Shown here: one piece after another, positions 2,404 to 37,990 of the stretch
Position numbering within the stretch: position 1 is the stretch's first letter
How the letters are laid out: each line of letters starts with the position of its first letter
Assembly (NCBI RefSeq): GCF_031157255.1
Contig: NZ_JAVIFX010000049.1
Span: forward strand, 1 to 37,990
DNA length: 37,990 bases
Source: Bradyrhizobium sp. LHD-71
Lineage (GTDB): Bacteria; Pseudomonadota; Alphaproteobacteria; Rhizobiales; Xanthobacteraceae
Direction: 5' to 3'
Notes under the pieces: generated by a model
Databases searched by the model: none
Seen by the model: only the letters and a program-made list of their open reading frames with translations
What the model was told of the DNA's origin: nothing
Translations under genes and position numbers: made by a program

Positions 2404-4230
2404 ATGGGTATCTTCGGGGCACTGACCACGTCGGTCGCGGGCATGCGGGCGCAGTCGTTCGCGCTGGAAAACATCTCCGGCAACATTGCCAACTCGCAGA
2501 CCACTGCGTTCAAGCGGATCGACACGAGCTTCCTCGACCTCATTCCGGACGGCGGCGCCAACCGGCAGCTCGCCGGCAGCGTCACGGCGCAGTCGCGCTC
2601 CACCAACAACGTGCAGGGTGACGTGCAGGCCTCGCAGGTTTCGACGTTCATGGCGATCAATGGCGACGGCTTCTTCTCGGTGCAGAAGCCCGGCGGCTTC
2701 TCCGACAACACGCCGGTGTTCGACGGCGTCGACCGCTACACGCGCCGCGGCGACTTCCAGCTCGACAAGCAGGGCTACCTCGTCAACGGCGCGGGCTACT
2801 ATTTGATGGGCATCCCGGTCGATCCGACCACCGGAAACGTGGTCGGCTCGACGCCGCAAGTGCTGCAATTCCAGAGCGACTTCCTGCCCGCACAGCAGAC
2901 CACGAAAGTGGACTACCGCGCCAACCTCGCGAGCTATCCGCTGACGACCGCACACGACAAGGCCGTGCCCGGCTCCGAGCTGCTGCGTCCGTCGAGCTTC
3001 AGCACCGGCCACAACCCGCTGGCGATCGGAACGCCGGCGCCGACGCATACGGACGCATCGATCACGGGCAGCGCGCAGAGCAATAAGCTTGCCACGCCGA
3101 CGGCGATTTCGGCGACGACGCTGCTTGCGGGGGCCGCAGCCACCAACTCGATCGTGAACAACTTCGTCGATGCCGATACGATCACCGTTAACGGCCTCAC
3201 CATCAACTTTCATAACGGCGGCGGCCATACCGGTTCGGCGGCTGCCGGCACCCTCGATCTCGATCTCAACACCGCCACGGTCGGCGACCTCATGAACGCG
3301 ATCGGCGCGATCACCGGCTGGCCCGCGAGCATCTCCACTGGCGGTGCGATCACGTTGCACACCGGCACGGCGGCCGACCTCTCCATCTCGTCGACCAACA
3401 CCGCAGCCCTCGGCTCACTGGGCTTCACGTCACCGGTCAGCCAGGCGCGTGGCGGCGGCGGCACGCCCGGCACCGGCCAGGTGGTCGGCAACGACCTGCA
3501 AGCGTTCCTCGACGAGTCGATCGCCGGCGGCGCGGTGACCGCCTTCGACGTTGCAGGCTCGCCGGTGAACCTGCAGTTCCGCTGGGCCAAGGTCGACAGC
3601 GCCTCGCTTGGCTCCGGTCATGCCGACAAGTGGAACCTGTTCTATCAGGTCAACGCCAACGCCACCGGCGCGCAGGTCGCCTGGCAGAACGTGAACACGA
3701 ACTTCACCTTCGGCGCCAACGGACAGATGGATCCGCCGGTGGTCTCGCTGAACCTGACGGCGCCGTCGATCAACGGCGTGACGCTCGGCGATGTCTCGAT
3801 CAATTTCGGTGCAGGCGGCCTGACGCAGTTCGCCGACGCCAACGGCAACGTGCAGGTCAACCAGATCGAGCAGGATGGTTTCCCGGCCGGCCAGCTGCAG
3901 TCGGTCTCGGTGAGCGATCGCGGCCGTATCGTCGGCAACTACTCGAACGGCCGTAACCTCGACCTTGCAGAGATCCAGCTTGCAAGCTTCAACGGTCCGA
4001 ACTTCCTGAAGCGCGTCGACGGCGGCGCGTTCGAGGTGACGGACGAGTCAGGCCCCGCGCTCTCCAACGCCTCCGGCCGCATCGTCGGCTCGTCGCTCGA
4101 GGGATCGAACACCGACATTGGCGACGAGTTCACCAAGTTGATCGTCACGCAGCAGGCCTACTCCGCCAACACGCGCGTCATCACCACGTCGAACCAGATG
4201 GTGCAGGACCTGTTGAATATGCTGCGGTGA
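2404..4230 (+). CDS. flgE: Flagellar hook protein FlgE
   Basis: FlgE polymerises into the hook, the universal joint between rod and filament. The N-terminus (MGIFGALTTSVAGMRAQS, then NISGNIANSQTTAFKR) is the rod/hook-family signature, and the C-terminus (TNQMVQDLLNMLR) is the matching helix. At 608 residues it is much longer than the roughly 400 of enteric FlgE. The extra length is mid-protein, where residues about 255-350 form a flagellin-IN-like module (DTITVNGLTINF up to AALGSLGF) that closely resembles modules in the two flagellins downstream. A GGAGACGG ribosome site sits just before the ATG. It is the first gene after the sigma-54 promoter at 2312 and is followed by flgK and flgL. Confidence 0.96.
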   Translation: MGIFGALTTSVAGMRAQSFALENISGNIANSQTTAFKRIDTSFLDLIPDGGANRQLAGSVTAQSRSTNNVQGDVQASQVSTFMAINGDGFFSVQKPGGFSDNTPVFDGVDRYTRRGDFQLDKQGYLVNGAGYYLMGIPVDPTTGNVVGSTPQVLQFQSDFLPAQQTTKVDYRANLASYPLTTAHDKAVPGSELLRPSSFSTGHNPLAIGTPAPTHTDASITGSAQSNKLATPTAISATTLLAGAAATNSIVNNFVDADTITVNGLTINFHNGGGHTGSAAAGTLDLDLNTATVGDLMNAIGAITGWPASISTGGAITLHTGTAADLSISSTNTAALGSLGFTSPVSQARGGGGTPGTGQVVGNDLQAFLDESIAGGAVTAFDVAGSPVNLQFRWAKVDSASLGSGHADKWNLFYQVNANATGAQVAWQNVNTNFTFGANGQMDPPVVSLNLTAPSINGVTLGDVSINFGAGGLTQFADANGNVQVNQIEQDGFPAGQLQSVSVSDRGRIVGNYSNGRNLDLAEIQLASFNGPNFLKRVDGGAFEVTDESGPALSNASGRIVGSSLEGSNTDIGDEFTKLIVTQQAYSANTRVITTSNQMVQDLLNMLR

Positions 4231-14314: not shown

Positions 14315-14644
14315 TCACGTCGCGCCTGCCTGTTGCATGATCAGCGTGCGAAACACGTCGTCGGTGATGCCGATGCCGCCGGATTTCGATATGCCCTTGG
14401 CGTATTCGTCCGTCAGCATCGACCGCCAGGGGCCGGTCCCTTCGGTGCTGCCGAGCGGACCTTCACCTTTGACGTCGGCGAACATCTGCTGAAACATCGA
14501 ATTGAGAAACACCTGTTCGAAATCCTGCGCCGAGGCCTTCGCCTTCTCGCGCGCCTGCGGCGAGATTTTCTTCAGCGCGTCGATCAGCGCGATGTCGGGA
14601 CGACCGTTGATCGTCGGCGTAGCCTGGACCGGAACAACGCTCAT
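14315..14644 (-). CDS. flgJ: Rod-binding protein (short FlgJ / CheL)
   Basis: This 109-residue protein holds only the rod-binding domain of FlgJ (QDFEQVFLNSMFQQMF, then TDEYAKGISKSGGIGI). It lacks the peptidoglycan hydrolase domain of enteric FlgJ, as is usual in alphaproteobacteria, where it is often called CheL. It would cap the growing rod in the periplasm. Its ATG overlaps the flgI stop by one base (TAATG), so the two are translationally coupled. Confidence 0.9.
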   Translation of the reverse strand: MSVVPVQATPTINGRPDIALIDALKKISPQAREKAKASAQDFEQVFLNSMFQQMFADVKGEGPLGSTEGTGPWRSMLTDEYAKGISKSGGIGITDDVFRTLIMQQAGAT

Positions 14645-15762
14645 TACATCACCTCGATGTCGGCCTGGATCGCGCCGGCGGCCTTGACCGCCTGCAGGAT
14701 CGCGATCATGTCGCGCGGGCCGATGCCCAGCGCGTTCAACCCGTCGACCAACTGCTGCAGCGAAACTCCGTCCTTCACCACCGCGAGCTTCTGGCCGTCT
14801 TCCTGCACGCCGACGCGCGAGCGTGGAACGACCACGGTTTCTCCACGCGACAGTGCATTCGGCTGGCTGACCTGCGGTGCCTCGGAAATCGTGACGGTCA
14901 GGTTGCCTTGCGCGATCGCCACCGTCGCGACGCGCACGTCGCGTCCCATGACGATGATTCCCGAGCGTTCGTCGATCACGATCTTCGCGCCGATGTCAGG
15001 TTCGACCTGCAACTGTTCGATCTCGGTGAGCAGGGCGACGACGTTGCCCTTGAATTCCTTCGGAACGTTCAACAGCACAGTCGACGGATCGACCGGCTCG
15101 GCGGTCTTGCTGCCGAGGAAGTCGTTGACAGCGGAGGCAATACGCTTGGCGGTGGTGAAATCCGCATTGCGCAGCGCCAGTCGCACGTTCGGCAGGCGAT
15201 TGAGCGCGAAATCGATCTCGCGCTCGATGATTGCACCATTGGAAATGCGCCCGACGGTCGGCACCCCACGTACGATCTTTGAAGCTTCACCTTCCGCCGC
15301 GAAGCCGCCGATCGCGAGTGAGCCTTGCGCCACCGCGTAGACATTACCGTCGGCGCCGAGCAGCGGCGTGACGAGGAGCGTGCCGCCCTGCAGGTTCTTG
15401 GCGTCGCCGAGCGCCGACACCGTGACGTCCATCCGCGTGCCCTGGGTCGAGAATGCGGGCAGGTTGCCGGTGACCATGACGGCCGCGACGTTGCCGGTGC
15501 GAATGTTGGCGCCACGAATGTTGACGCCCATCCGCTCGAGCATCGCCTGCAGCGACTGCTTGGTGAAGGGGATGTTGTTCAGCGTGTCGCCGGTTCCGTT
15601 CAGGCCGACGACCAGGCCATAGCCGATCAACTGGTTCTGGCGCACGCCCTCGATGTTCGCGAGATCCTTGATCCGCGAGGTGGCGCCGGCGGGCACCATA
15701 TGCACCATATAAAGACAGAGGATGGCGACCACAGCGCACAAAGCTCGAAACGCGCCTGACAT
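14644..15762 (-). CDS. flgI: Flagellar P-ring protein FlgI
   Basis: FlgI forms the periplasmic P ring around the rod. The 372-residue protein has a signal peptide (hydrophobic ALCAVVAILCLYMVHMVPAG, cleavage near residue 27), then the hallmark SRIKDLANIEGVRQNQLIGYGLVVGLNGTG region (split here as one conserved block from residue 29). The C-terminus has LNALGIGPRDMIAILQAVKAAG and ends IEVM. A sigma-54 site lies about 70 bases upstream. It diverges from fliX, the arrangement known in Caulobacter. Confidence 0.96.
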   Translation of the reverse strand: MSGAFRALCAVVAILCLYMVHMVPAGATSRIKDLANIEGVRQNQLIGYGLVVGLNGTGDTLNNIPFTKQSLQAMLERMGVNIRGANIRTGNVAAVMVTGNLPAFSTQGTRMDVTVSALGDAKNLQGGTLLVTPLLGADGNVYAVAQGSLAIGGFAAEGEASKIVRGVPTVGRISNGAIIEREIDFALNRLPNVRLALRNADFTTAKRIASAVNDFLGSKTAEPVDPSTVLLNVPKEFKGNVVALLTEIEQLQVEPDIGAKIVIDERSGIIVMGRDVRVATVAIAQGNLTVTISEAPQVSQPNALSRGETVVVPRSRVGVQEDGQKLAVVKDGVSLQQLVDGLNALGIGPRDMIAILQAVKAAGAIQADIEVM

Positions 15763-18399: not shown

Positions 18400-18541
18400 A
18401 CCTATTGCTGATTAACGGCCTCTTCACCCTGTGCCCGGGCCGCGGCACTGCGGTCCGCATTCATTTCGAATGAATCTCGAAGTGCGTGTGTCGCGGACAG
18501 GGACGCGCAAGGATTTCGCTGCATGCTGAACCGATCGTCAC

Positions 18542-18713
18542 CTAGTGCGGCGAATTTGAAATTCCTGCCAACTTCGCGGCGATTCCGGCGCAGGAATTTC
18601 AAATTCAAAAGCCGCACTAGAACCATAAAAGTTGCTAGTGCTCCTTATGTTTCCGAAGTTCGCATGTAGAGCCTGCCGCGAAGTGATGCGAACTTCGGAA
18701 ACGGAGCACTAGC
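18542..18713 (-). repeat. Composite double-hairpin repeat, copy 1
   Basis: Two long hairpins lie side by side. The first (18542-18620) has outer arms CTAGTGCGGC/GCCGCACTAG and a 16 bp inner stem GAATTTGAAATTCCTG, with four unpaired A's in the right arm. The second (18635-18712) has outer arms CTAGTGCTCC/GGAGCACTAG and an inner stem TTTCCGAAGTTCGCAT. A 14-base spacer (AACCATAAAAGTTG) joins them. Read on the minus strand, the order, bulges and spacer match copy 2 at 37709-37876. The element sits 25 bases before a small LapA-like gene. The rest of the 18400-18737 gap shows no gene. Confidence 0.85.
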
Positions 18714-18737
18714 CGGTCAGCAACAGGGCGTCACGGC

Positions 18738-29963: not shown

Positions 29964-30731
29964 TCAGGCCGGAACGTCGGCAAGGCGTTCGATCGACGAC
30001 TTGCGGACCTCGTTGAGCTGCTGGATCACGTTGGTGATGCCGGTGTAGGCGCGCATCACCTCGATCATCTTCGCCATCTCCGCGACGCCGTTGACGTTCG
30101 ACTTCTCGATCGCGCCCTGGCGCACGCCGGCGCGGACGGCGGCCTGCGCGACCGTCCCCTCCGGTGCGGCGAACAGGTTGGCGCCCTGCTTCTGCAAGGT
30201 GTGCGGCTGCTCGAAGTTGACGAGCCGCAGCCTGCCGCGCGTCGACTCGACGTTGGTGTTGTTGCCCTCACGCACGGTGATGGTGCCGTCGCGGGCGACC
30301 GAAATGTCCTGGTCGCCGGGCTGGAAGGTGATGGGCCCGTTGGTGCCGATCACCTGATCGCCATCGTTGGTGACGAGCTGGCCTGTCGCGTTGATCTGGA
30401 ACGCGCCGTTGCGGGTGTAGCGCTCGGCGCCATTTGCCTGCACGACGAAGAAGGCGTTGCCGTCCAGCGCCATGTCGAGCGGGTTGCCGGTGCGCTCGAC
30501 CGGACCCTGGCCGAAATCATGGACGGTCGCGCGGTCCTGCACGAAGCTGAGGCGACGGTCGTTGCCGGTGAACGCGTCGTTGCGCGCCGGCGAGCGGAGA
30601 TATTCCTCGAACAAAGCCTTGTCGGCCTTGAAGCCGGTGGTGGTGACGTTCGCGATGTTGTTCGCCACGACGCCGAGCTGGCGTTCGAGCGCGACCTGCC
30701 GCGATAGTCCGACGAGAAGCGTATTCTCCAT
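29964..30731 (-). CDS. flgF: Flagellar proximal rod protein FlgF
   Basis: FlgF is a proximal rod subunit. The 255-residue protein starts MENTLLVGLSRQVALERQLG with VVANNIANVTTTGFKADKAL, has LDMALDGNAFFVVQANGAER, and ends with a helix around MAKMIEVMRAYTGITNVIQQ. It is the first gene of flgF-flgG-flgA-flgH and has a strong sigma-54 site about 100 bases upstream. Confidence 0.95.
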   Translation of the reverse strand: MENTLLVGLSRQVALERQLGVVANNIANVTTTGFKADKALFEEYLRSPARNDAFTGNDRRLSFVQDRATVHDFGQGPVERTGNPLDMALDGNAFFVVQANGAERYTRNGAFQINATGQLVTNDGDQVIGTNGPITFQPGDQDISVARDGTITVREGNNTNVESTRGRLRLVNFEQPHTLQKQGANLFAAPEGTVAQAAVRAGVRQGAIEKSNVNGVAEMAKMIEVMRAYTGITNVIQQLNEVRKSSIERLADVPA

Positions 30732-30828
30732 CGGCTCGATCTCCCCTGATGCGAACGGACTGGCTCTCCCAAGCCGGTTCCGTCCTTCGCGCCGCAGGCT
30801 CTCCCAAGCCCGCTGCTCACAGGTCCAT

Positions 30829-34157: not shown

Positions 34158-37100
34158 ATGACGCGTGGGGGTCGTGGCGAATCCTGGTCGTGCGCTCGCT
34201 TCAATGCGGGCGCGCTTGCGCGTGCGTTCAGCAAGTCCCGTCTGGCCGGCTTTGCCCTCATCGCGGCGGGATGTCTCTTTGCAGCATCGGCGACGGCTCA
34301 GGTGACCGCGGCGCCGCCGACCAAGGGGACCGCGACGCTCACAAAATCCGGCGATTACGCGCGCCTGCTCATCAAGCTGCAGCGGCAGGTCGAGGCCGAG
34401 GTGCGCACCTCCGGCTCCATCGTCATCGTGCGCTTCGCGCAGGCGGTCGATGTCAATGTCGACAAGCTGTGGGAAGCTGCGCCCGAGTTCGTCAGCTCGG
34501 CGCGGACCGATCCCGACGGCAGCGCCATCAGGCTTGCGCTATCGCGCAAGGCGACCCCGAGCGTGATGGTGGCGGGCGAACGCCTGTTCATCGATTTCCT
34601 GCCCGATACCTGGACCGGCCCACCCCCGGCATTGCCGCCGGACGTCATCAAGGAGCTGGCCGAGCGGGCGAGGGCGGCCGAGAAGCTGCTGCAGCAGCGC
34701 GAGGCGGCGCTCGCAGCATCGAAGCGCCCGCCGATCCGCGTTCGTGCATCGAACCAGCCGACCTTCACACGCTACGTGTTCGAATTGCCGGAAGGCACGG
34801 GGGTCTCGACGATCCTGAACAAGGAGCGGTTGACGCTGAACTTCGATTCCGGCGTCTCGTTCGACCTTGCGGATGCGAAAGTCGCGGCAGCGCCGAACAT
34901 CACGTCGATTACGCAGAAGATCGATGGCGAAACCACTGTCGTCGATTTCACCCTGATCGGCGACGCGGACGTTCACTCCTTTCGGGAGGAGAGGAACTAC
35001 ATCGTCGACATCGGCCTGGTCAGGGATCAGCCGAAAAGCGATCCACTGAAGCCGCAGGCGCAAGCGCCGCCACAGTCGCCTCCCTCGCAGCCTGCCGGCA
35101 AGGTCGGCGGTCCCGAAGTCGCCGCCGCAGTCACTTCACCCGCGAAGCCCGTGCAGGTCGAGGCCGCACCGGTCCCGGTTGTGCCGCTGACGCTTGAACG
35201 CACCGAGGTCAAGCCCGACGCGGCGACGAAGAAACTCGCCCTGGCCAGCGCCGATCAGAGCGCACCGCTGATCACCGGCGATTCCACCGCGATCACGGTC
35301 CAGCGCAACAGTGAGCAATTGCGGCTGACGATCCCGTTTTTCGCTCCCACACCGGCGGCCGTCTTCACGCGGTCGGATGCGCTGTGGATGGTGTTCGACA
35401 GCGAGGCGCCGCTCGACGTCAGCCAGATCGATCGCGATGGCGGGCCGATCGTTCGCGACGTGCTGCGCATCCCGCTCCCACACGGGCAGGCCATCCGCCT
35501 CCGCCTCAACCGTCCGCAACTCGTCAGCGTGTCCGGTGAGGGACATTCCTGGGTGGTGCATGCGGCCGACGTTTCGCTGTCGCTGCCGCAGCCGCTGACT
35601 GCGCTTCGCAACATCGCCGAACCGGCACGCGCCAGCGTGACGGTGCCGCTGGCAGGGCCCGGGCGATTGCATCGACTTATGGATCCCGACGCGGGCGATG
35701 CGGTGCTTGCAGTTACGGCGTCCCTGCCGGCGCGCGGTTTCGTCAAGCGGCAGGATTTCGTGGAGTTCGCGTTGCTCGGCACCGTGCACGGGGTGGCGGT
35801 GCAATTGAAATCCGACGACGTGCAGGCCGAGCTCGCGCCGGACAAGCTGGTGATCGGGCGTCCCGGTGGGTTGACGCTGTCGGCGGCGGAGATGTCGGGC
35901 GAAGGGACGACGGCTGCGGCGAAGACGCTGCTCGACGTGCCGACCTGGCGCGACGACCGCGCGGGCAATTTCATTCAGCGCCGTGACGAGCTTTGGGCGG
36001 CGGCGGCGCAATCGGCCACGGAGGACCGCATCGACGCGCGGCTTGACCTGGCCCGGTTCTATCTGGCGAACGGCTTCTATCCGGAGGCCCGCGCGGTCAT
36101 CGACGCATTCCTCCGCGACGAGCCGCAGGCCGAGGAAGATTCCAACCTGCTCATCGTCCGGGCGCTGGCGAGCATTCTGTCGGGCGCGCCGGAGGAGGGA
36201 CTTAAAGGTCTGGCGAACCCCGCCGTGGGCACCGGCTACGACTCGCGCCTTTGGCGGGCCATGGCGCATGCGCGCCTCGGCAAATGGACGGAGGCGCGCG
36301 AGCTGTTCAAGGGCGTCGATTTCGCGATCGGCGCGCTGCCGCTGGAATTGCAGCGCGTCGCAATCGTCGACGCGCTGCGCGCCTCGCTCGAAGTCCGCGA
36401 CTATGCCGGCGTCTCGAGCCGCTTCAACGAGCTCGACATCGTCGGTGTCGCGCCGGACCAGCAAGGCTATCTGGCGCTGCTGCGCGGGCGGATGGCGCAG
36501 GCGCTCGGCCGCGAGAAGGATGCGCTGACTGAATACCGCAAAGCGATTGCGTCGCCGGATCGCATTTCAGCGTCGGAAGCAAAGCTTTATGAGGTCGAGC
36601 TTGCCCTGAAGCGCGGCGAGATGACGAACGAACAGGCGCTGGCGGACCTGGAGACGCTTGCCGTCACCTGGCGCGGAGATGCCGTCGAGATCAAGACGCT
36701 GCAACTGCTGGCGCGCCTTTACGAAAAGGAAGGCCGCTTTCGCGACGCCTTGATGGCGGCGCGCACAGCCACAAGCCTGCAGCCTGATGCGGACGTGACG
36801 CGGCAGATGCAGGATGACGCGTCAGCGCTGTTCGCGCAGCTCTTCATCAGCGAGCGGTCCGACATCATGGCGCCGGTGCAGGCGCTGGCGCTGTTCTACG
36901 AATTCCGCGAATTGACGCCGATCGGACGGCGCGGCGACGAGATGATACGCCGCCTGGCGGATCGGCTCGTCGCGGTCGACCTGCTCGATCAGGCGGCCGA
37001 GCTTCTGCAGTACCAGGTCGATCATCGGCTGGAAGGTTCGGCGCGCGCGCACGTCGCCTCGCGCCTGGCGATGATCTATCTCACCAACCGCAAGCCTGAC

Positions 37101-37712
37101 CGCGCGCTGGCTGCGCTGCGGGCCACACGCATTGCCGATCTTGCCGGCGAATTGCGACAGCAGCGGCTGCTGCTCGAGGCGCGCGCGCAAAGCGATGTTG
37201 GCCGGCACGAGCTTGCGCTCGACATCATCTCCAATCTGGCGGGACCTGAAGCGATCCGTCTGCGCTCCGACATCCACTGGGCTGCGCGGCGATGGCGCGA
37301 GTCCTCCGAGCAGCTCGAGCTGCTCTACGGCGAACGCTGGAAGGACTTTGCGCCGCTTTCTGCGCAGGAAAAGTCTGACATCGTTCGCGCCGCGATCGGA
37401 TATTCGCTGTCCGACGACGGCATCGGCCTGCACCGCCTGAAGGAGAAATACGCGGCCAAACTGGCGGAAGCCGACGACCGTGCGGCGTTTGACGCCGCAA
37501 CGAAACTCGCCACCGCCAACAGCGCCGATTTCGCGACGATCGCGCGCATGGCCGCCGCGGTAGATACCCTCGACGGCTTCCTGCGCGTCATGCGCCAGCG
37601 CTTCCCGGACTCTTCACGACCGCCGTCTCAAGCCGCAGCAAAGACGGACCCGAGCCCGACCGCCGGGCTGCCGGCGATCAAGGGGCTGAGGCGTGCGGAG
37701 GCGGGGCGCTAG
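34158..37712 (+). CDS. Large exported protein with AMIN-like modules and TPR repeats
   Basis: This is an 1184-residue protein. After a basic N-terminal stretch comes a signal or anchor (LAGFALIAAGCLFAASATAQ). Three beta-rich segments follow (about residues 65-152, 200-288 and 388-478), each with the pattern of a hydrophobic strand pair, then strands such as RLFIDFLPD, RLTLNFDSGV or ALWMVFDSEA; they look like AMIN-type modules. A Pro/Ala-rich linker lies at about 290-340. From about residue 630 to 1100 the protein is helical with TPR-type repeats (LARFYLANGFYPEARAVIDA, LARLYEKEGRFRDALMAART, ASRLAMIYLTNRKPDRALAA). A periplasmic or envelope scaffold is likely. It follows motE and has a perfect CtrA-like box. 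Its TAG stop is part of the repeat starting at 37709, so its C-terminus may have been altered by that insertion. Confidence 0.85.
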   Translation: MTRGGRGESWSCARFNAGALARAFSKSRLAGFALIAAGCLFAASATAQVTAAPPTKGTATLTKSGDYARLLIKLQRQVEAEVRTSGSIVIVRFAQAVDVNVDKLWEAAPEFVSSARTDPDGSAIRLALSRKATPSVMVAGERLFIDFLPDTWTGPPPALPPDVIKELAERARAAEKLLQQREAALAASKRPPIRVRASNQPTFTRYVFELPEGTGVSTILNKERLTLNFDSGVSFDLADAKVAAAPNITSITQKIDGETTVVDFTLIGDADVHSFREERNYIVDIGLVRDQPKSDPLKPQAQAPPQSPPSQPAGKVGGPEVAAAVTSPAKPVQVEAAPVPVVPLTLERTEVKPDAATKKLALASADQSAPLITGDSTAITVQRNSEQLRLTIPFFAPTPAAVFTRSDALWMVFDSEAPLDVSQIDRDGGPIVRDVLRIPLPHGQAIRLRLNRPQLVSVSGEGHSWVVHAADVSLSLPQPLTALRNIAEPARASVTVPLAGPGRLHRLMDPDAGDAVLAVTASLPARGFVKRQDFVEFALLGTVHGVAVQLKSDDVQAELAPDKLVIGRPGGLTLSAAEMSGEGTTAAAKTLLDVPTWRDDRAGNFIQRRDELWAAAAQSATEDRIDARLDLARFYLANGFYPEARAVIDAFLRDEPQAEEDSNLLIVRALASILSGAPEEGLKGLANPAVGTGYDSRLWRAMAHARLGKWTEARELFKGVDFAIGALPLELQRVAIVDALRASLEVRDYAGVSSRFNELDIVGVAPDQQGYLALLRGRMAQALGREKDALTEYRKAIASPDRISASEAKLYEVELALKRGEMTNEQALADLETLAVTWRGDAVEIKTLQLLARLYEKEGRFRDALMAARTATSLQPDADVTRQMQDDASALFAQLFISERSDIMAPVQALALFYEFRELTPIGRRGDEMIRRLADRLVAVDLLDQAAELLQYQVDHRLEGSARAHVASRLAMIYLTNRKPDRALAALRATRIADLAGELRQQRLLLEARAQSDVGRHELALDIISNLAGPEAIRLRSDIHWAARRWRESSEQLELLYGERWKDFAPLSAQEKSDIVRAAIGYSLSDDGIGLHRLKEKYAAKLAEADDRAAFDAATKLATANSADFATIARMAAAVDTLDGFLRVMRQRFPDSSRPPSQAAAKTDPSPTAGLPAIKGLRRAEAGR

Positions 37713-37876
37713 TGTCCCGAATCCGAAGTTCGCTATGCTTTGCAGCGAGCTCAGAGCGAACTTCGGCTTCGATCAGGACACTAGCAAATTTATGATTCTA
37801 GTGTCGTTTATGGATCAGAAATTCGCACGTTGGACTCGCGGCAACGATGGTGCGAATTTCTGATCCACGACACTAG
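37709..37876 (+). repeat. Composite double-hairpin repeat, copy 2
   Basis: The first hairpin (37709-37784) has outer arms CTAGTGTCC/GGACACTAG and inner stem CCGAAGTTCGCT. The second (37798-37876) has outer arms CTAGTGTCGT/ACGACACTAG, a TTAT bulge in the left arm and inner stem GGATCAGAAATTCGCAC. The spacer is CAAATTTATGATT. Inner stems share CCGAAGTTCGC and GAAATTC with the corresponding hairpins of copy 1, while outer stems differ but still pair. The left end provides the stop codon of the TPR gene and the right end touches the IS630-type element. Confidence 0.85.
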
Positions 37877-37882
37877 AGCATT

Positions 37883-37990
37883 TCACATTTTGACTGAAGC
37901 GTAACCGGCGTTGGCGAAGTAGTTGGCGCATTCGCGAGGCTGGATCGCCTCGCCGAGGTTGCCGATATGGCGCCAAGTGTCCTCGACGGT
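37883..37990 (-). CDS. IS630-family transposase, C-terminal end (cut by window edge)
   Basis: The minus strand encodes 35 codons open to the window edge, TVEDTWRHIGNLGEAIQPRE, then CANYFANAGYASVKM and a TGA stop. This is the typical C-terminus of IS630-type DDE transposases (the W-x-x-I-G-x-L and ECANYF...GYASV pattern). The body lies beyond the window. The element's end is probably at the TA of the CTAG at 37873-37876, seven bases after the stop. Whether the gene is intact cannot be seen. Confidence 0.8.
   Translation of the reverse strand, partial: TVEDTWRHIGNLGEAIQPRECANYFANAGYASVKM

Follow-up and report, generated by a model that had tools for sequence, protein, structure and literature searches.

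The CcrM-associated intergenic repeats (CIR) of Caulobacter, as presented in a 2007 review, consist of two long inverted-repeat arms and a linker, measure about 110 bp, and carry GANTC at a terminal loop; the same text describes movement of such repeats by transposases as lacking experimental support (PMC2229807). The Bru-RS1 and Bru-RS2 elements of Brucella are palindromic elements of 103 and 106 bp (PMC10800456), and Bru-RS has been reported as a candidate hot spot for IS711, whose target word YTAR covers CTAG (PMC2266754). Such alphaproteobacterial repeats are also the subject of papers from 1994 and 1995. REP dimers pair two hairpins as an inverted heterodimer; the spacer between them is conserved and the tetranucleotide at the foot is fixed (PMC3733652). 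Multi-copy palindromes of bradyrhizobia, namely Br-REP1, Br-REP2, and the GTAG-14/CGTC repeats, include some grouped stem-loops (PMC5082802, PMC3733652).

Here we describe a double-hairpin element found twice in a window of 37,990 nucleotides (the window being the whole stretch of DNA that was analysed). Our literature search found no description of this element, although sequences printed only in figures would escape such a search. Like the CIR, the Bru-RS, and the RIME repeats of rhizobia, the element is alphaproteobacterial and is built of two inverted-repeat arms and a linker. Those repeats measure about 103–118 bp, whereas the two window copies measure 171 and 168 bp. Furthermore, hairpins of 76–79 nt, CTAG on all four feet, bulges in the inner arms, and a 13-nt spacer of another sequence distinguish the element from these repeats, the comparison with CIR and RIME being made with their descriptions and not with consensus sequences. 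We read the element as a longer cousin of the CIR and Bru-RS repeats.

Like REPIN and BIME units, the element is present in many copies and joins two unlike hairpins in inverted orientation through a conserved spacer; the inverted dimer is likewise its usual state. In contrast to REP and REPIN sequences, which have GTAG or CGTC at one foot of a 20–40 nt palindrome, it has CTAG at both feet of each hairpin, leaves CTAG on both flanks after insertion, and has no cognate Y1 gene where this was tested. The printed consensus sequences of Br-REP1 and Br-REP2 are shorter than and unlike these hairpins, and the GTAG/CGTC repeats have no CTAG feet. In IS200/IS605, subterminal hairpins are read on one strand by Y1, a mode that the mirror-symmetric bulges seen here would not seem to fit. 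MITEs such as ERIC and Correia are likewise short and non-autonomous with inverted ends and a short target duplication; however, the present element is made of two distinct hairpins where MITEs have a single terminal inverted repeat, and its fold rather than its sequence is conserved.

Anatomy, unity, and distribution of the element

The two copies lie at 18542–18712 on the minus strand and 37709–37876 on the plus strand, each with two CTAG-footed hairpins in inverted orientation flanking a spacer of 13–14 nt. The initial annotation had located both copies, and its coordinates hold except that element 1 ends at 18712 and not at 18713; the spacers, shared cores, bulges, and differing outer stems were as it described when the window sequence was read again. 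The features are as follows.

18542..18620, minus strand: right-type hairpin B2 of element 1, 79 nt, CTAG-footed, with GATTC in the loop; covariance model 85.0 bits
about 18607–18610: inner-arm bulge AAAA of B2
18621..18634, minus strand: spacer of element 1, 14 nt, CAACTTTTATGGTT on the minus strand
18635..18712, minus strand: left-type hairpin B1 of element 1, 78 nt, CTAG-footed; covariance model 93.0 bits
about 18645–18648: inner-arm bulge TTAT of B1
37709..37784, plus strand: left-type hairpin A1 of element 2, 76 nt
37709..37712, plus strand: outer CTAG of element 2; its TAG terminates, in frame, the open frame 34158–37712
about 37772–37775: inner-arm bulge ATCA of A1
37785..37797, plus strand: spacer of element 2, 13 nt, CAAATTTATGATT
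37798..37876, plus strand: right-type hairpin A2 of element 2, 79 nt, with GACTC in the loop; covariance model 94.5 bits
about 37808–37811: inner-arm bulge TTAT of A2

Aligned from the outer foot inwards, the hairpins show a foot of 9–10 bp, a stem of 15 bp, and a loop whose centre is GC-rich (TTGCCGCGA and similar); all four window hairpins carry a 4-nt bulge on the inner arm only, beside the spacer. The element is an inverted pair of related but unlike hairpins built on one plan from the outer foot inwards. The foot words of each hairpin are CTAGTG...CACTAG, and eight of the nine CTAGTG words in the window (mean in shuffled sequence, 3.9) are feet of these four hairpins. Folding against shuffled sequence gave a z of −12.1 for element 1 as DNA (18535–18720) and −10.1 for element 2 as RNA (37700–37885). 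No Rfam family matches the two elements at gathering score. The only Rfam match of the window is a full-length flg-Rhizobiales cis-regulatory RNA at 30686–30819 on the minus strand (103.9 bits).

The composite of left hairpin, 13-nt spacer, and right hairpin is the unit. As an alternative to the composite unit that it proposed, the initial annotation had named unrelated single hairpins; the composite was found genome-wide, with 95 matches in the source genome (7.48 Mb) to a strict junction pattern (CACTAG, C/T-AA, 6–14 nt, CTAGTG) versus 0 when the pattern was reversed. The junction alone is decisive, because the hairpin pattern by itself also finds many places in its control (163 places versus 60 when reversed). 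Among 121 intact elements from many taxa, chosen for four exact CTAGTG feet and C/T-AA and thus biased to good copies, the spacer measured 13 nt in 110, 12 nt in 6, and 14 nt in 5, with the consensus CAANTTTATGATT. In the loci examined, which overlap so that copies were counted more than once, neighbouring hairpins stood 12–14 nt apart 158 times, shared one CTAG 15 times (9 distinct junctions), and stood 40–499 nt apart in 10 pairs, the remainder being further apart. By strict rules, 84 of 339 distinct hairpin places had no partner; 59 of the 84 had enough flank to be inspected, and a decayed partner was seen by eye in 57. The remaining two are a lone hairpin in locus L089 and one in L244 beside a run of Ns. 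The former, an A1 hairpin at 435–510 (C14:93234–93309 of the source genome) without partner or spacer, looks as though a precise excision between two CTAG words had removed the other hairpin together with the spacer.

The family is unevenly distributed: some alphaproteobacterial lineages carry it in abundance, and elsewhere it is rare. Searching the source genome with a covariance model of a single hairpin gave at least 150 matches, a lower bound since 150 of 5364 first-look candidates were scored. The sister genome, the only other genome of the source genus that was examined, had 4 junctions by a looser pattern whose reversed control there gave 10; the 4 are elements by sequence, some of them decayed. 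Within the family, the junction occurred in 99 of the 296 genomes sampled and in 28 of the 47 genera; some single matches may be chance. The richest genomes had 307 (G122, a single contig), 282, and 205 copies, and each sampled member of genus g25 had 0 or 1. Named genomes yielded at least 110 matching stretches, and among the 80 listed were Nitrobacter, Hyphomicrobium, Mesorhizobium, Devosia, Methylocystis, Chelatococcus, Phenylobacterium, environmental Brucella species, and Parvularculaceae. In a sample of the phylum, 13 of 397 genomes matched, with a consensus-like spacer only in the source genome and G533; the other 11 were taken for chance, because isolated hits turn up in many genomes with the reversed control as well. 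A match in SAR116 was dropped, as no hairpins were visible by eye. Many draft contigs of the source genome begin inside a copy (C6:9, C8:63, C10:7, C14:44, C19:22, C21:2, C40:25, and others), suggesting that the element may cause assembly breaks.

Pairing and covariation of the hairpin arms

The covariation in the stems, which the initial annotation had anticipated, was strong and two-sided. Of the 400 cells in a chosen set of 16 hairpins, which represent six main types, 98.5% pair, only one of them as G-U, and 14 of the 25 pairs vary on both sides. The covariation score of this set was 0.481, versus 0.034–0.093 with slid partners. In a larger set, 224 of 228 distinct hairpins had the minimum of 11 inner pairs, and at their 18 variable stem positions 3918 of 4032 cells (97.2%) were Watson-Crick when scored at the best bulge offset, which favours pairing. 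The other variable cells were 35 G-T, 37 A-C, and 42 of other kinds. A constraint at the RNA level would be expected to favour G-U pairs. Since there is no excess of G-T over A-C, the fold fits maintenance as DNA, not as RNA.

The two arms of one hairpin agreed at 96.6% of variable positions, whereas the outer arms of an element's two hairpins agreed at 64.9%. Therefore, each hairpin keeps its own arms paired, and the arms are not merely copies of one protein site. Arms that match within a hairpin while the two hairpins differ would also be expected if pairing were a mutational by-product, in which template switching copies arm onto arm and there is no selection on the fold. The bulge-free hairpins (5 of 224, and two more outside that set in L106 and L202) agree with such copying; however, it should erase the inner bulge, and 219 of the 224 hairpins keep a bulge of 2–6 nt. 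We consider this explanation unlikely. The L106 hairpin (518–589; C4:304517–304588 of the source genome) is 72 nt long with both arms of the outer type and is a possible product of arm-to-arm copying, and the L202 hairpin (3377–3453) has both arms of the inner type.

Insertion sites and gene ends

Empty sites, which the initial annotation had proposed to look for, were found in three cases by comparison; at each, a 4-nt word stands on both sides of the element and no host DNA is lost. On a Martelella plasmid, the element lies inside group II intron-derived sequence, stretches of which are common to 11 Rhizobium records. Three aligned plasmids without the element (R. brockwellii, R. beringeri, and R. 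leguminosarum; 92.6–93.9% over the joined flanks) read GGCGC-TT-TCAG-CCATC, versus GGCGC-CT-CTAG-[element]-CTAG-CCATC in Martelella. The filled site has the 4-nt word twice and retains every base, the word itself differing between the lineages. Since the empty target reads TCAG, we infer CTAG as the word that would have been targeted at the Martelella site.

The other two sites lie in a second repeat of the source genome, which is 106 nt long, CTAG-bounded, and composed of two hairpins and a linker, with CTAG before the second hairpin and GATTC in one loop. This repeat resembles Bru-RS and RIME and may be equivalent to them. Its copies are located as follows.

L029, 1595–1699
L109, 16210–16313
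L058, 1346–1411 and 1570–1617
L110, about 14366–14647

This repeat also fits the CIR description in PMC2229807. In L058, the element splits it at the internal CTAG; the empty comparison consists of two distinct repeat copies of 94–95% identity in which the word, CTAG or CTGG, occurs a single time. A different element interrupts another, more diverged copy at the same point in L110. The empty sites for L058 and L110 are paralogous repeats and not orthologous loci, and they rest on two distinct close copies. The MITE hallmark of inverted termini with a target-site duplication was thus found at three sites, of which one has TCAG as the empty word and two are paralogous. The 106-nt repeat stands beside the longer element and receives it at CTAG, which suggests that the two may share machinery.

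End-to-end chains sharing one CTAG fit CTAG targeting. The bases beside the outer CTAG showed a mild preference only (C at position −2 in 104 of 241). Two 20-kb regions were searched for in the sister genome, and alignment of five sites of the first, at about 80% identity, gave no clean empty site, and in the genus of G122 synteny stands at roughly 70–85% identity. Database searches with the plasmid flanks of Aminobacter, Ochrobactrum, and Bradyrhizobium returned only the query's own record, and of nine records matching the Roseibium flanks none was shown as lacking the element.

Our analysis also revealed that insertion falls on TAG stop codons more than expected by chance. With a threshold of 150 codons, the outer TAG is the stop of an open frame at 50 of 216 ends, versus 16 and 25 in the other two frames; the counts were 61, 29, and 41 of 229 at 100 codons, and 82, 56, and 62 of 230 at 60 codons. 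At 75 outer ends, a single frame was open over 150 codons or more; these ends split 43, 14, and 18, the 43 having TAG in frame (binomial p 1.7e-5). In the window, the frame closed by element 2 encodes 1184 aa with weak TPR matches, and this may or may not be the natural end of the gene. An SDR gene of Roseibium encodes 241 aa and has its stop within the CTAG of the element, and two Sulfitobacter plasmid relatives of about 78% identity likewise encode 241 aa; in Sulfitobacter the next annotated gene starts 9 nt after the SDR gene, leaving no room for the element. The Roseibium insertion is one case in which protein length was unchanged. For a Bradyrhizobium ABC protein, the other homologues (below 60% identity) are too distant for the C-terminus to be judged.

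The excess of copies beginning at stop codons, together with the strong RNA fold of element 2, would be compatible with a structured RNA or 3′-UTR regulator under selection at the RNA level. However, G-T is not commoner than A-C in the variable stem cells, Rfam gave no match at gathering scores, and insertions lie within intron-derived sequence and within other repeats, so that we regard an RNA role as very improbable. Covariation in hairpins at gene ends does not necessarily indicate a regulatory RNA.

Mode of movement and candidate enzymes

We propose that the element is probably a non-autonomous, CTAG-targeted mobile DNA element of about 170 bp, moved as a unit by an enzyme supplied in trans that recognises its fold. 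The left hairpin, 13-nt spacer, and right hairpin would move together, and insertion at CTAG would leave CTAG on both sides without loss of host DNA. The enzyme would, we infer, read the two unlike hairpins with their inward bulges as structures in DNA, and the need for recognition would keep the arms Watson-Crick paired even as their sequence drifts. The element's foot is itself a CTAG, so that a new copy could join an existing one end to end through a single shared CTAG; an insertion at the end of a gene could spare the protein, TAG being a stop codon. Among the three options of the initial annotation, the mobile palindrome is supported as the best fit, the structured RNA is disfavoured, and membership in the REP/RAYT group fails where tested.

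The search for the enzyme, which covered two transposase families, Y1 and rve_3, did not find it, and no movement of the element was observed. Y1_Tnp was matched in six of ten high-copy genomes; it had no match in G122 with its 307 copies, in G149, or in the less complete G068 and G232. The Y1 gene of the source genome (C19:150776) has no CTAGTG within 3.3 kb. Of 11 Y1 loci checked (this gene and ten others), two had a lone CTAGTG word and one an adjoining element, the latter being an IS200 of G034, with hairpins of its own, at the element's outer end. These results bear on a REPIN/BIME-type element mobilised by a RAYT (Y1) transposase. The inverted hairpin heterodimer, conserved spacer, and fixed foot tetranucleotide are as in REP dimers (PMC3733652); however, the absence of Y1 matches from these four genomes, the single adjoining case, the length of the hairpins, and CTAG on both feet with no GTAG or CGTC make this origin improbable.

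The element could also be a conventional MITE, the trimmed product of a DDE (IS481-like) transposon with TG...CA ends and a CTAG target, its hairpins being only long terminal repeats. IS481 targets NCTAGN. The 121 intact elements, selected for that pattern, read CTAG-TG...CA-CTAG, and in the source genome an rve_3 element (L328, about 708–1744, on C19; ends TGTGAACTTTCAGG/TGTGGAACCTCAAC), which is probably IS481-like, sits between GCTAGG and GCTAGC just beside a double-hairpin element. In contrast, 20 rve_3 loci included no gene-bearing relative with the element's ends and had nothing in common with them beyond TG, no insertion sequence sharing the ends was found in the 11 Y1 loci either, and the single rve_3 match of G122 contains a stop codon. 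Furthermore, Roseibium copies have a CTAGTC foot, and the arms covary, although DDE ends do not require arm-paired hairpins. We consider the MITE origin possible but doubtful, and continue to favour movement by a fold-recognising enzyme.

The occurrence of GANTC touches on the relation to CIR. The right-hairpin loop contained GANTC in 43 of the 121 intact elements and the left-hairpin loop in 2, versus about 10 by shuffling in each case, and 96 of the 121 contained it anywhere in the element. In named contigs the right loop carried it in 12 of 71, and both window elements have it there. GANTC in the right loop recalls the CIR description but is not general. One CTAG-specific alphaproteobacterial enzyme system may move a superfamily of two-hairpin repeats, comprising the 170-bp family and CIR/Bru-RS/RIME-type repeats, by DNA fold and not by sequence; we offer this only as a tentative idea, with the odds somewhat against it. 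With copies in the hundreds, a defined target, known empty sites, and a fold of variable sequence, the family makes the question of movement by transposases testable.

Hairpin-to-hairpin distances in the examined loci showed no repeated long pair of the kind expected of a gene-bearing version. A pair of hairpins 1.3 kb apart in L340 was set aside as such a candidate, as it is an IS3-type insertion in the spacer. In this locus (1366–2800, genome G044), the IS3-type element sits in the 13-nt spacer of a double-hairpin element, and we read the insertion as having an AGC duplication.
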